Shown here one piece after another: positions 1 through 54,880 of a stretch of 64,000 nt of DNA; position 1 is the stretch's first letter; each line of letters opens with the position of its first letter. This stretch comes from Clostridia bacterium (GTDB lineage: Bacteria > Bacillota > Clostridia > Christensenellales > UMGS416), in NCBI GenBank assembly GCA_016938675.1, contig JAFGUF010000012.1, positions 1 to 64,000 of the forward strand. The letters are read 5' to 3'. The translations under genes and the position numbers were made by a program. The notes beneath the pieces are model-generated. The model saw nothing but the letters and a program-made list of their open reading frames with translations, made no database searches and was not told the origin of the DNA.

Positions 1-2
1 AT

Positions 3-80
3 GGTGGGTATAGCTCAGTTGGTTAGAGCGCCAGGTTGTGGCCCTGGAGGCCGTGGGTTCGAATCCCACTATTCACCCCA
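3..80 (+). tRNA. tRNA-His (GTG anticodon)
   Basis: A complete cloverleaf can be folded. The 7-bp acceptor stem GTGGGTA pairs with TATTCAC, the T arm is GTGGG/CCCAC, and the anticodon loop TTGTGGC carries GTG. The extra G at position 3 faces the discriminator C at 77, the G-1:C73 pair that is the hallmark of bacterial tRNA-His. CCA is encoded at 78-80. tRNA-Gln follows 31 bases downstream, so the two are probably cotranscribed. Confidence 0.97.
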
Positions 81-111
81 TTCTTTTGTATTCAAATAAA
101 ATTATATATAT

Positions 112-186
112 TGGGGTGTCGCCAAGCGGTAAGGCACTGGACTTTGACTCCAGCATTCGTAGGTTCAAATCCTGCCACCCCAGCCA
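112..186 (+). tRNA. tRNA-Gln (TTG anticodon)
   Basis: Acceptor TGGGGTG pairs with CACCCCA. The anticodon loop CTTTGAC carries TTG, reading CAA and, by wobble, CAG. The T arm is GTAGG/CCTGC, and discriminator G is followed by an encoded CCA at 184-186. A strong terminator follows at once. A near-copy of the last 20 bases lies at 349-368, which suggests use of this tRNA as an integration target. Confidence 0.97.
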
Positions 187-188
187 TG

Positions 189-225
189 AAAAAAGCATAT
201 TCCAAAAGGAATATGCTTTTTTTGT
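189..225 (+). terminator. Rho-independent terminator of the tRNA-His/tRNA-Gln unit
   Basis: A perfect stem of about 15 bp (AAAAAAGCATATTCC with its complement), a 4-base AAAA loop and a run of T form a classical intrinsic terminator three bases after the tRNA-Gln CCA. Confidence 0.93.
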
Positions 226-348
226 TGCTGTAGTTGTGTGGTGCGAAGCTGTTTAATAAAGTCCGCTTTTATGAAAATTAGTGTATCACCAAAACTCTTA
301 TGCAAACTAAGTGTAATTATTACATAAAGACTGCCGGACTTCGGCTTG

Positions 349-368
349 AAATCCTGCCACCCTAGCCA
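349..368 (+). repeat. Stray copy of the tRNA-Gln 3' end (att-like scar)
   Basis: Nineteen of 20 bases match the tRNA-Gln 3' end at 167-186, including the CCA, but nothing upstream here folds into a tRNA. A displaced tRNA 3' end is what tRNA-targeting integrases leave at the far side of an element or after its loss. The rest of the 187-501 stretch holds only the two terminators and no gene. Confidence 0.7.
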
Positions 369-52022: not shown

Positions 52023-52161
52023 TTTTCTATAATTTGCACACGTACAACAGCATCACTATTTTTGCTTGAAATCTATTGATTTTTAGGTGTCTTTTTTATA
52101 CGGTTGTTTGTTGACATTTGCATTGCTGACTGTTATAATAATACAGCTTGATGCAAAATAC

Positions 52162-52253
52162 GGAGAAGTACCCAAGAGGCCGAAGGGGCTCCCCTGCTAA
52201 GGGAGTAGGACGGGGTAACTGTCGCGAGGGTTCAAATCCCTCCTTCTCCGCCA
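52162..52253 (+). tRNA. tRNA-Ser (GCT anticodon)
   Basis: Acceptor GGAGAAG pairs with CTTCTCC. Anticodon stem CTCCC/GGGAG holds the loop CTGCTAA with GCT at 52196-52198, reading AGC/AGU. A long variable arm between 52206 and 52230 is the class II feature of tRNA-Ser, the T arm is GAGGG/CCCTC, and CCA is encoded at 52251-52253. Three copies of its 3' end lie within the next 2.6 kb. Confidence 0.96.
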
Positions 52254-52254
52254 A

Positions 52255-52290
52255 AGCGATGTTTCTAAAAGAAACGTCGCTATTTTATTT
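52255..52290 (+). terminator. Terminator of tRNA-Ser
   Basis: AAGCGATGTTTCT and AGAAACGTCGCT pair with one G:T around AAA, and ATTTTATTTTT follows. Confidence 0.88.
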
Positions 52291-52297
52291 TTACACG

Positions 52298-52413
52298 CGA
52301 TAGCCCAGCGATAGTTGATTAGGAAACGAAGTTCTCCGGTCTTGCGAAGCAAAAAATCAACAAATAGCGGTGCAAGTATATAAAAGTGTTTAAATATTAA
52401 TCCGCCCTTCTCC
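52298..52413. repeat. tRNA-Ser-linked repeat unit A
   Basis: A 70-base core starting CGATAGCCCAGCGATAG and containing TCTCCGGTCTTGCGAAGCAA ends at 52367. After 31 bases, AATCCGCCCTTCTCC (52399-52413) matches 13 of 15 bases of the tRNA-Ser 3' end. Unit B has the same core, spacing and tRNA-like end. Confidence 0.85.
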
Positions 52414-52451
52414 ATCAAACAAAAAGGCTTAATTATCAATTCCGATATACT

Positions 52452-52685
52452 TTATATCAAGATTGACAATAAGTCTTCGCTCATATCATTAATATATTTG
52501 TAAGCATCGTAAACGCCTTGGTTATAGAACTCCGGCGCTAATTCTTTCACAACAAAATTCAGAATTAGGTTTGCAGCCAAATCCCCTATTTCTTCATCTC
52601 GTTCTTCTAAAAAATACTGCTTAATTACTAAAATCATTTCTGCTTTCTTTTCTTTCGATAATGTAATTCTTTCTTTACTTCTCAT
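52452..52685 (-). CDS. DUF2164 family small protein
   Basis: A 77-residue protein with the DUF2164 pattern: ITLSKEKKAEMILVIKQYFLEERDEEIGDLAANLILNFVVKELAPEFYNQGVYDAYKYIND (cited in part). It is all-helical, acidic and uncharacterised, common in Firmicutes. It lies between tRNA-Ser-linked repeat units A and B, so it may be cargo of a former integrative element. It appears complete. Confidence 0.9.
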   Translation of the reverse strand: MRSKERITLSKEKKAEMILVIKQYFLEERDEEIGDLAANLILNFVVKELAPEFYNQGVYDAYKYINDMSEDLLSILI

Positions 52686-52878
52686 GGAACACCTCTTAAA
52701 TAATGATAAAAAGTATTATATCATAGCTAATACGCCAATTCTACTTACGCATTAAGCACAAATAGACCGTTGTATTGAGCCGGGAGTCTTTTTTATTACC
52801 TCCAAATAGTGTAAGTTCTAATACCCTCACTCCACCAGAAAGATGTTTCATTTGAACATCTCAATTATATATCCCACT

Positions 52879-52995
52879 CGATAGCTCAGCGATAGTTGAT
52901 AAGGAAACGAAGCTCTCCGGTCTTGCGAAGCAAGGAATAAACAAATAGTAACGCATTTTCAAAAAAGTATTGCGGTATTAATCCCTCCTTCTCCG
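52879..52995. repeat. tRNA-Ser-linked repeat unit B
   Basis: The 70-base core at 52879-52948 differs from unit A by only a few bases, and after 31 bases AATCCCTCCTTCTCCG (52980-52995) is identical over 16 bases to the tRNA-Ser 3' end. The remaining 52686-53206 sequence holds one hairpin and no gene. Confidence 0.88.
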
Positions 52996-53040
52996 GCATA
53001 TTCGCCGTATATTAACATGATCAATTATATGTGTAGAACA

Positions 53041-53070
53041 AAGAACGCCTCCCAGATGTGAGACGTTCTT
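53041..53070 (-). terminator. Hairpin downstream of the esterase gene
   Basis: AAGAACGCCTC pairs with GAGACGTTCTT (one mismatch) around an 8-base loop. It lies about 135 bases after the esterase stop on the minus strand, followed there by TTTG. A terminator role is plausible but the T run is short. Confidence 0.5.
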
Positions 53071-53206
53071 CTATTATTAATATAACTTTTTTATCATACT
53101 ATCCAAGGTCATATTTGTATTGGTTTTTTTCTCCAGTGTCCTCTTGAATTTATGAGCAAAGTTTTTTATCCAAAATCATTGCCTGTCAATAATCCTGCTT
53201 TTCCAA

Positions 53207-54622
53207 TCAATTTCTTTCTTGCATAGAAAGCCACTCAAAAAGGGTAGTTTCTTTCCCGTCAATTGTCAAAACACATTCGTTATTTAGGGCATATATCCAA
53301 GAAAAGTGGCCCAAGTACTCATAAGGTGTTCCGTCGCTGTTGGTGTATAGGCCTGAGGTGTCCACAACTTTGTCCAGTCTACTATAGTGGACATTTTGTC
53401 CCCCCGCTTCTACCAGACGTCTATAAAATTCATTGGAAAAATCATCAATTAATTGTGGGCTCCCGTCCGCTTTCTGATACACAATATATACATTATTTTT
53501 GCGATCAAATTCGCCTCTCGCAATTGGAAATGTTGCGTCGGTGAGTGCATGAACAATCCAAATCGGCATATCCTTTATAGCCTCAATTCTCTGCTGATAC
53601 ATCCATCCTTTTTTATATGCTGCACAAATTGGAAAACCAGCAGCAAAATAGTCAGTGTAGTTGATCAGCATATTTATTGTCATAAACCCACCAGCTGAGC
53701 AACCTCCGACGATAATTTTGTTTCCATCAACAAAAGAATTATCGACAACAAATTTATCAATCAATGCCTTTAGTGCTTCGGTATAATAGGATTCACCAGC
53801 AGGACTAAAGCCGTACTCTCCCGAGCCATTTGTATCCACCCACATGGTCGGAACTTGTGGCACAAGTACGTATGCACCAGTGTCTCCAAAGTATGATTGG
53901 CAGGTTTCTGTGGCAAGGTTTACGACCTTGTTTGCCATCAGCGGAACTGTGGTGTCGGTGCCACCTTCACCACCACCATGTAACCAAACTATTAATGGCA
54001 CACTGCCTTCGCTTGCCAAAGAAGTATCTGGACTATAATACGCATATGTCATATCTACGTCCCCAAAACTAAACTTTTGGTTGTTCACAAAATCATCTGC
54101 TATTATCTTTATGTCGCCTGCTTTTTCTGCTTCTCCTGTTTTACTAAAAGTTAAAGTTTTTCCGTCTGACGATGATATAGTTTTTGAATAAGCGAGTGAG
54201 ATTATGTAGCCGGTTTCGACAACTTCATTAAGGAATTTTGAAGTATTGTAGTTATACGGTGAGCTTTCAATTACAGTTGGGCCAACTGCCATTTCGATTG
54301 CAATGCAATTCCCTGTTATTGTTGGGTTGCCTTGGCTGTCACAAAGATAAGTCTTTGTTATTGTACGCTTGGCAGTTATTGATTTTTTTTTATTGTTTTC
54401 TACATATGTGCGAACTGATTTTACTTTAAAGGTAGAATTATCAAAACTGGCAGCGTCTATTTCTGTGTCAAAACAAAGTATTATCTTATCTATCGCGGCA
54501 CCCCAATCATATGCTCTGGTCACAGTTATATAATGCACCTCTATGTTTTTCGCCTGCCAGCAACTAGGAATGCTGGTTAAAATGATGGTCAGGATTATTA
54601 TTGCAAGAAACAGCTTTTTCAT
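53207..54622 (-). CDS. Secreted lipoprotein esterase (PHB-depolymerase-like alpha/beta hydrolase)
   Basis: A 471-residue lipoprotein with signal MKKLFLAIIILTIILTSIPSC (lipobox, Cys21; cited with its last residues in mind). Residues 30-180 form an Ig-like beta domain. The hydrolase follows: LIVWLHGGGEGGTDTT (oxyanion), GGCSAGGFMTINM near 325-337 (nucleophile Ser in GxSxGG), WIVHALTDATFP (acid) and GHFSWIYALNNE (catalytic His). It matches extracellular PHB-depolymerase or feruloyl-esterase-like enzymes with an N-terminal Ig domain. The gene is A+T-rich and lies between repeat units B and C, so acquired cargo is likely. Confidence 0.88.
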   Translation of the reverse strand: MKKLFLAIIILTIILTSIPSCWQAKNIEVHYITVTRAYDWGAAIDKIILCFDTEIDAASFDNSTFKVKSVRTYVENNKKKSITAKRTITKTYLCDSQGNPTITGNCIAIEMAVGPTVIESSPYNYNTSKFLNEVVETGYIISLAYSKTISSSDGKTLTFSKTGEAEKAGDIKIIADDFVNNQKFSFGDVDMTYAYYSPDTSLASEGSVPLIVWLHGGGEGGTDTTVPLMANKVVNLATETCQSYFGDTGAYVLVPQVPTMWVDTNGSGEYGFSPAGESYYTEALKALIDKFVVDNSFVDGNKIIVGGCSAGGFMTINMLINYTDYFAAGFPICAAYKKGWMYQQRIEAIKDMPIWIVHALTDATFPIARGEFDRKNNVYIVYQKADGSPQLIDDFSNEFYRRLVEAGGQNVHYSRLDKVVDTSGLYTNSDGTPYEYLGHFSWIYALNNECVLTIDGKETTLFEWLSMQERN

Positions 54623-54771
54623 AATTCACCTCAGAACAAGATACTTGTATACAAAAGATGCTTAATTACCAATATAGTACCATGTGCATTATTACCGGTC
54701 AACATTTTGAGGCTAAAGCTGCTTAATTCATATATAAAATTCCATAAGCTAAATATTCTTATTTTAGTATT

Positions 54772-54845
54772 GCTCCGATTTTGCGAAGCAAAAAATCAAC
54801 AAATAGCGGTATAAGTAAAAGCTTTGATATTAATCACTTTCTCTG
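54772..54845. repeat. tRNA-Ser-linked repeat unit C (truncated)
   Basis: GCTCCGATTTTGCGAAGCAAAAAATCAACAAATAGCGG matches the second half of the core of units A and B (cited in full length only by position 54772-54809), then AATCACTTTCTCTG (54832-54845) is a decayed tRNA-Ser 3' end. The first half of the core is missing. The 54623-54939 gap otherwise holds only the terminator below. Confidence 0.75.
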
Positions 54846-54880
54846 CAAAAAAAGAAAACAGCCCATTTGAACTGTTTTCT
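54846..54880 (-). terminator. Terminator of the DUF2892 gene
   Basis: On the minus strand AGAAAACAG pairs with CTGTTTTCT and seven T follow, about 60 bases after the DUF2892 stop. Confidence 0.88.

Follow-up and report, generated by a model that had tools for sequence, protein, structure and literature searches.

A tRNA-Ser(GCT) gene (52162..52253, plus strand; ARAGORN and Rfam RF00005) opens the locus described here, which lies in a window comprising the whole analysed stretch of 64,000 nucleotides. The gene is preceded by a consensus promoter (52111..52139, plus strand; TTGACA-17-TATAAT with TG preceding the second hexamer, 12/12 match) and followed directly past its CCA by an intrinsic terminator with a 12-bp stem and a T-rich tail (52255..52291, plus strand). 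Beyond the terminator lie three repeat units on the same strand. Unit A consists of a core for which sequence comparison and folding allow a three-way junction (52294..52380) and of a copy of the tRNA-Ser(GCT) 3' end (52399..52417, 15/19 bases). In unit B, the core was delimited by sequence comparison to 52875..52961, with the 3'-end copy at 52980..52998 (18/19 bases, 16 of them consecutive). Units A (52294-52413) and B (52875-52994), 581 bp apart, were 81% identical over 120 bp in register, and the 3'-end copy was found at a spacing of +145. Unit C (54773..54817) is a decayed copy of the core, with 91% identity over 45 bp.

Two genes on the minus strand separate the units. A DUF2164 gene, considered accessory, lies between A and B (52452..52685; PF09932, E=7e-23), and an esterase lipoprotein gene with EstA_Ig_like and alpha/beta hydrolase domains lies between B and C (53207..54622; PF18435, PF00326, PF02230). 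No integrase gene was detected among the ORFs between the tRNA-Ser(GCT) units. Open reading frames on the antisense strand that span unit and tRNA (e.g. 52197-52439, minus strand) were judged spurious by inspection, as they reflect shared DNA only.

To gauge the 3'-end copies, the flanks of tRNA-Ser(GCT) were shuffled, and the best match to the last 19 bases was then at most 13. Under a simple equal-base model, the chance of at least 18/19 in 1 kb was ~2e-7 and that of at least 15/19 was ~1e-3. A preliminary description of this DNA had reported a core shared by units A and B, the copies of the tRNA-Ser 3' end in which both units end, the two genes between the units and the lack of an integrase gene, and all of this was borne out, in the case of the two genes by their Pfam domains. 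It had also read unit C as a third copy with a tRNA end; the core held, but the tRNA-end copy was not recognisable above chance in the tail of unit C, which is too decayed to count.

DUF2164 was present in 2/40 relatives and in 0/7 same-family relatives, so the A-B segment carries an accessory gene, as cargo would be if the locus had arisen by integration at the tRNA or from a mobile unit, as had been proposed. In three same-family genomes tRNA-Ser(GCT) adjoins tRNA-Ser(TGA), whereas in this genome it is solitary and follows a DUF711 gene, and the locus has thus been rearranged.

The genome (2.62 Mb in 45 contigs, ~96% complete) was scanned piecewise for further copies of the core. Six good copies were found, three behind tRNA-Ser(GCT), two behind tRNA-Ser(GGA) (contig C2) and one behind tRNA-Lys(TTT) (contig C10), all six downstream of the tRNA genes and on the tRNA strand. 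The copies outside the window had not been described before. The possibility that the core is a repeat dispersed away from tRNA genes, raised as a check in the preliminary description, was not borne out by this search, and the tie of the core to the tails of three tRNA genes agrees with its proposal of integration at tRNAs. A mobile unit is less well served by the distribution beyond this genome. Sequence searches of 60 relatives, of which seven belong to the same family, and of phages, plasmids and viral contigs did not recover the core, and 257 Gb of GTDB genome contigs gave four scattered matches, about the chance level.

From the CCA on, the tails of tRNA-Ser(GCT) and tRNA-Ser(GGA) have ~160-200 bp in common (85% over ~200 bp) behind tRNA bodies that differ. 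The shared part contains the terminator, seen in the two-locus alignment, the core, the 3'-end copy and ~12 further bases. Such a common tail at two tRNA-Ser genes also agrees with integration or a mobile unit, but the att-type ends expected of it are not well matched by C2b, the 3'-end copy behind tRNA-Ser(GGA), which scored 11.5 against tRNA-Ser(TGA) and 8.5 against tRNA-Ser(GGA), a small difference in a decayed copy. A displaced fragment derived from tRNA-Ser(GGA) should fit that gene, so the better fit to tRNA-Ser(TGA) points to an exchange of tails between tRNA-Ser genes; by sequence this would be the simpler account of C2b, small as the difference is. Several contigs start or end within tRNA genes (His, Ser; window 1-84, contigs C21, C4 and C38), and some tails may therefore be missing from the assembly.

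Every tRNA of the genome was also compared with its own flanks, which revealed like anatomy at tRNA-Gln(TTG) inside the window and at tRNAs for Thr, Leu and Pro outside it, none of them noted previously. The tRNA-Gln(TTG) gene (112..186, plus strand; tRNA prediction) is followed by a 3'-end copy that spans T-loop to CCA (346..368, plus strand; 18/19 of the last bases, at +163). An Rfam SurA sRNA match over its terminator (window 187-273, minus strand; E=2e-5, 28 bits against a gathering score of 100 bits) is probably due to chance. At tRNA-Thr(GGT) (contig C2:56000-59500, stretch L114) the 3' end from the T-loop recurs at +160 (19/19); the terminator is repeated behind it, as is ~60 bp of the flank in similar form (65 bp at 86%). 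The sequence preceding this copy can pair with it as a 7-bp acceptor-like stem, and the tail holds a 12-base inverted copy (p=0.008). In both the Thr and the Gln tail the sequence between tRNA and copy differs from the Ser core, and the stretches just 5' of the two copies resemble each other (p=0.002); their right-end hairpin had no match in viral contigs.

Two further tRNAs have copies of their 5' parts. A 45-base block of the 5' half of tRNA-Leu(GAG) (contig C42:43000-46100, stretch L111) was found 118 bp upstream at 93% identity and ends at the anticodon loop; it is positioned between a promoter-like stretch and the real gene. For tRNA-Pro(CGG) (contig C1, stretch L096:1385-1640), a 19-base block of the 5' end lies 114 bp upstream (95%), and its last 9 bases recur as a perfect inverted copy immediately past the terminator, which gives an extended hairpin with the 3' end of the tRNA. 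In every case the 3' copies are downstream and the 5' copies upstream, and in every 3'-tail case a strong intrinsic terminator separates the tRNA from the unit. The TTCAAAT T-loop was considered as a mark of element-borne tRNA ends and was seen in all four affected tRNAs, yet the same tRNAs of the sister genome G001 carry it without copies, so that it was regarded as ancestral.

The copies could be what is left of decayed tandem tRNA genes, each a tRNA pseudogene with one half still recognisable. The body of the Thr copy resembles tRNA-Thr when anchored (p=0.005) and allows the acceptor stem, and the rest of the Pro copy is weakly like tRNA-Pro (p ~0.02). No similarity to the missing part, however, was seen in Gln (p=0.3), in Leu (p=0.24, 0.93) or in the two Ser units, half copies of 18-19/19 beside noise are sharper than decay by point mutation would leave, and the conserved Ser core is not tRNA-derived. 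Decay of this kind fits only Thr and perhaps Pro, and we think it improbable as the origin of the copies. When the body of the Thr element was compared with tRNAs unanchored, the result was not specific, tRNA-Leu scoring equally high, and the Ser units, considered as degenerate tRNA-Ser, showed no similarity to it.

Three same-family genomes were used as controls. A partial copy nearby was present for 6/42 tRNAs here, both Ser genes included, against 0/90 in the controls (Fisher p=8e-4, in a test that assumes independent loci, an assumption that the two Ser tails violate). By itself, the local-alignment scan gave Thr, Gln, Pro and Leu, and the Ser loci were recovered by searching for 3' ends and for the core. 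The fifth direct match of the scan, tRNA-Met on stretch L077, was left out because it is another tRNA, truncated by a contig end. At the 90 control tRNAs with their flanks no direct tRNA-end copy was detected, and one of the three genomes had two weak inverted matches.

For comparison with a known system, nine E. coli regions were checked as a yardstick with the same scan. Behind tyrV, the last 19 bases of tRNA-Tyr recurred at +159, +337 and +515 (19/19 each), and in the tyrT-tyrV spacer at +156 (19/19). At similar spacing, copies of the last 18-19 bases also occurred at argVYZQ and at a number of lys tRNA genes; Rfam assigned RtT to tyrTV and to the lys loci. To our knowledge, RtT-type repeats have been described from Gammaproteobacteria, their origin is unsettled and no integrase is known for the E. 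coli anatomy.

The tails described here share much with RtT (RF00391; rttR at tyrTV). At Ser(GCT), Thr(GGT) and Gln(TTG) a unit behind the tRNA ends in the last ~19 tRNA bases, as does the E. coli unit in the last 19, and the spacing of +160 (Thr), +163 (Gln) and +145 (Ser) compares with +159 at tyrV. In both systems the units can be repeated, occur at several different tRNA genes of one genome and may contain an inverted partial copy (Tyr in E. coli, Thr here). Unlike RtT, the units here are past an intrinsic terminator, their cores differ between tRNA genes, accessory genes lie between those at Ser(GCT), and 5'-half copies occur upstream of the Leu and Pro tRNAs, with none in the nine E. coli regions. 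The RF00391 covariance model gave no match in the whole genome at E<=10, the window stretches and other copy-bearing loci included, with the E. coli control above the cut-off. The tails are thus RtT-like in anatomy but, by sequence, not members of RF00391. In the literature we found RtT-type tRNA-tail repeats described for no bacteria other than Gammaproteobacteria, a result that argues only weakly for their absence elsewhere.

The core was folded into a possible 27-pair three-way junction in which an outer stem carries two short GAA-looped hairpins. Over six copies, 93.7% of the cells were paired and five pairs were changed on both sides, in all three helices. The covariation score was equalled in 9/500 shuffles and the observed values were reached in 9-31/500, the pair support coming from six sequences of which several are related. 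Single folds of units A and B were no more stable than shuffles. Taken as a model, the pairing is suggestive of a conserved three-way junction in the core.

A junction with compensatory changes would suit functional transcribed spacers, that is, units transcribed past the tRNA terminator by read-through and then processed like RtT or 3'ETS-leuZ of E. coli; release of E. coli RtT from tRNA transcripts has been reported (PMC4986893). Against this stand the strong terminator that precedes the unit in every 3'-tail case, the decay of copies C and C10, and unit B, which breaks 4/27 of the junction pairs. We regard such a function as a very unlikely explanation of the units.

Genomic islands at tRNA genes leave a 3' fragment of the tRNA downstream or a 5' fragment upstream, with the T-loop and the anticodon loop as integrase sub-sites (PMC4383910). 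The segments here could accordingly be non-coding satellites, very small integrative elements flanked by att sites, or the scars of such elements, moved by a tyrosine integrase acting in trans; a non-coding satellite mobilised in trans is also what the preliminary description had suggested. The targets would be tRNA 3' ends (T-loop site) or 5' halves (anticodon-loop site), each insertion would restore the tRNA and displace a fragment of it, and tRNA-Ser(GCT) would have received three arrivals in tandem, two of them with cargo genes. As in the islands known from tyrosine integrase att scars and collected by Islander, a full tRNA is accompanied by a partial copy on the side that the rule prescribes, in every case, and the boundaries coincide with integrase sub-sites (PMC4383910), since the Thr and Gln copies start at the T-loop and the Leu copy stops at the anticodon loop. 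The Ser loci are identical directly after the CCA, and DUF2164 has the character of an accessory gene. Five tyrosine-recombinase genes are present in the genome, one beside a tRNA-Met and one behind tmRNA, and tRNA-targeting integration therefore does occur in this organism. The integrase gene beside tRNA-Met(CAT) (contig C1 near 327244, stretch L194) and the one behind tmRNA (contig C1:78500-97500, stretch L197), which is accompanied by relaxase-like and type I restriction genes, belong to ordinary integrated islands.

Several observations weigh against this interpretation. Most segments are gene-free and 114-182 bp long, compared with the 2-200 kb accepted by Islander, and neither an integrase inside them nor a known helper was found, the five integrase genes lying elsewhere in the genome. 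The displaced fragment comes from its own tRNA in Thr, Gln and Ser(GCT), but the Ser(GGA) end, a decayed copy with a slightly higher score against another tRNA, is a misfit. No copy was found in the other species or mobile-element collections searched, and E. coli shows like anatomy behind tyr, arg and lys tRNA genes with no integrase known to us. Integrative elements are a serious alternative, with DUF2164 as an accessory gene between A and B in their favour, though less likely than not. In a broader form, a single ongoing process would copy halves of tRNAs, with cuts at the T-loop or anticodon loop, beside their own genes; its agents would be non-coding integrative elements of <200 bp mobilised in trans by a recombinase that targets tRNAs, and E. 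coli RtT would be fossils of a like element. This we consider improbable. MITE- or REP-like repeats are likewise short, non-coding, hairpin-forming, lineage-restricted and present in few copies, but the units here occur only at tRNA tails, in one orientation and with a tRNA-end copy at one end, and the integrase search brought up no link to a transposase.

The explanation that we prefer, and to which we give an even chance, is that the units form a lineage-specific family of tRNA-tail repeats, non-coding and hairpin-forming, which have RtT anatomy and arose by duplication and tail exchange. The anatomy, its spacing, the restriction to tRNA tails and, among the genomes searched, the restriction to this one are direct observations. 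A locus of this family comprises a tRNA gene, a terminator, ~100-160 bp of structured sequence and then the last 19-23 tRNA bases, at times repeated. The units would have originated when a tRNA 3' end was duplicated together with its tail, and they probably spread from tail to tail by recombination (gene conversion or unequal crossover) that started in the short homology of tRNA 3' ends, which would explain the common tail from the CCA on at two Ser genes with different bodies. DUF2164 and the esterase would have been caught between the units at Ser(GCT) later. As the units are past a terminator, any RNA from them would stem from read-through, and a processed-RNA role is possible.

Duplication with tail exchange would account for the repeated Thr tail as well as for the anomalous Ser(GGA) end, and the Thr case, in which 3' end, terminator and flank recur together, would fit a plain tandem duplication. 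Further points run counter to this explanation: the Ser tails and the Thr and Gln tails may be separate events, any homology between them being a candidate only, and the sharp boundaries at the T-loop and anticodon loop also fit integrase sites.

The RtT repeats of E. coli were already known, and the tails here show a like anatomy in a bacterium distant from Gammaproteobacteria. Its presence at several tRNA genes of this bacterium, with unrelated cores, and at none in three sister genomes suggests repeated formation. Short tRNA fragments beside tRNA genes are accordingly not necessarily island ends, and caution is called for in reading them as such. Being young and countable, the set of copies in this genome would allow duplication, tail exchange and site-specific integration to be separated by strain comparison.
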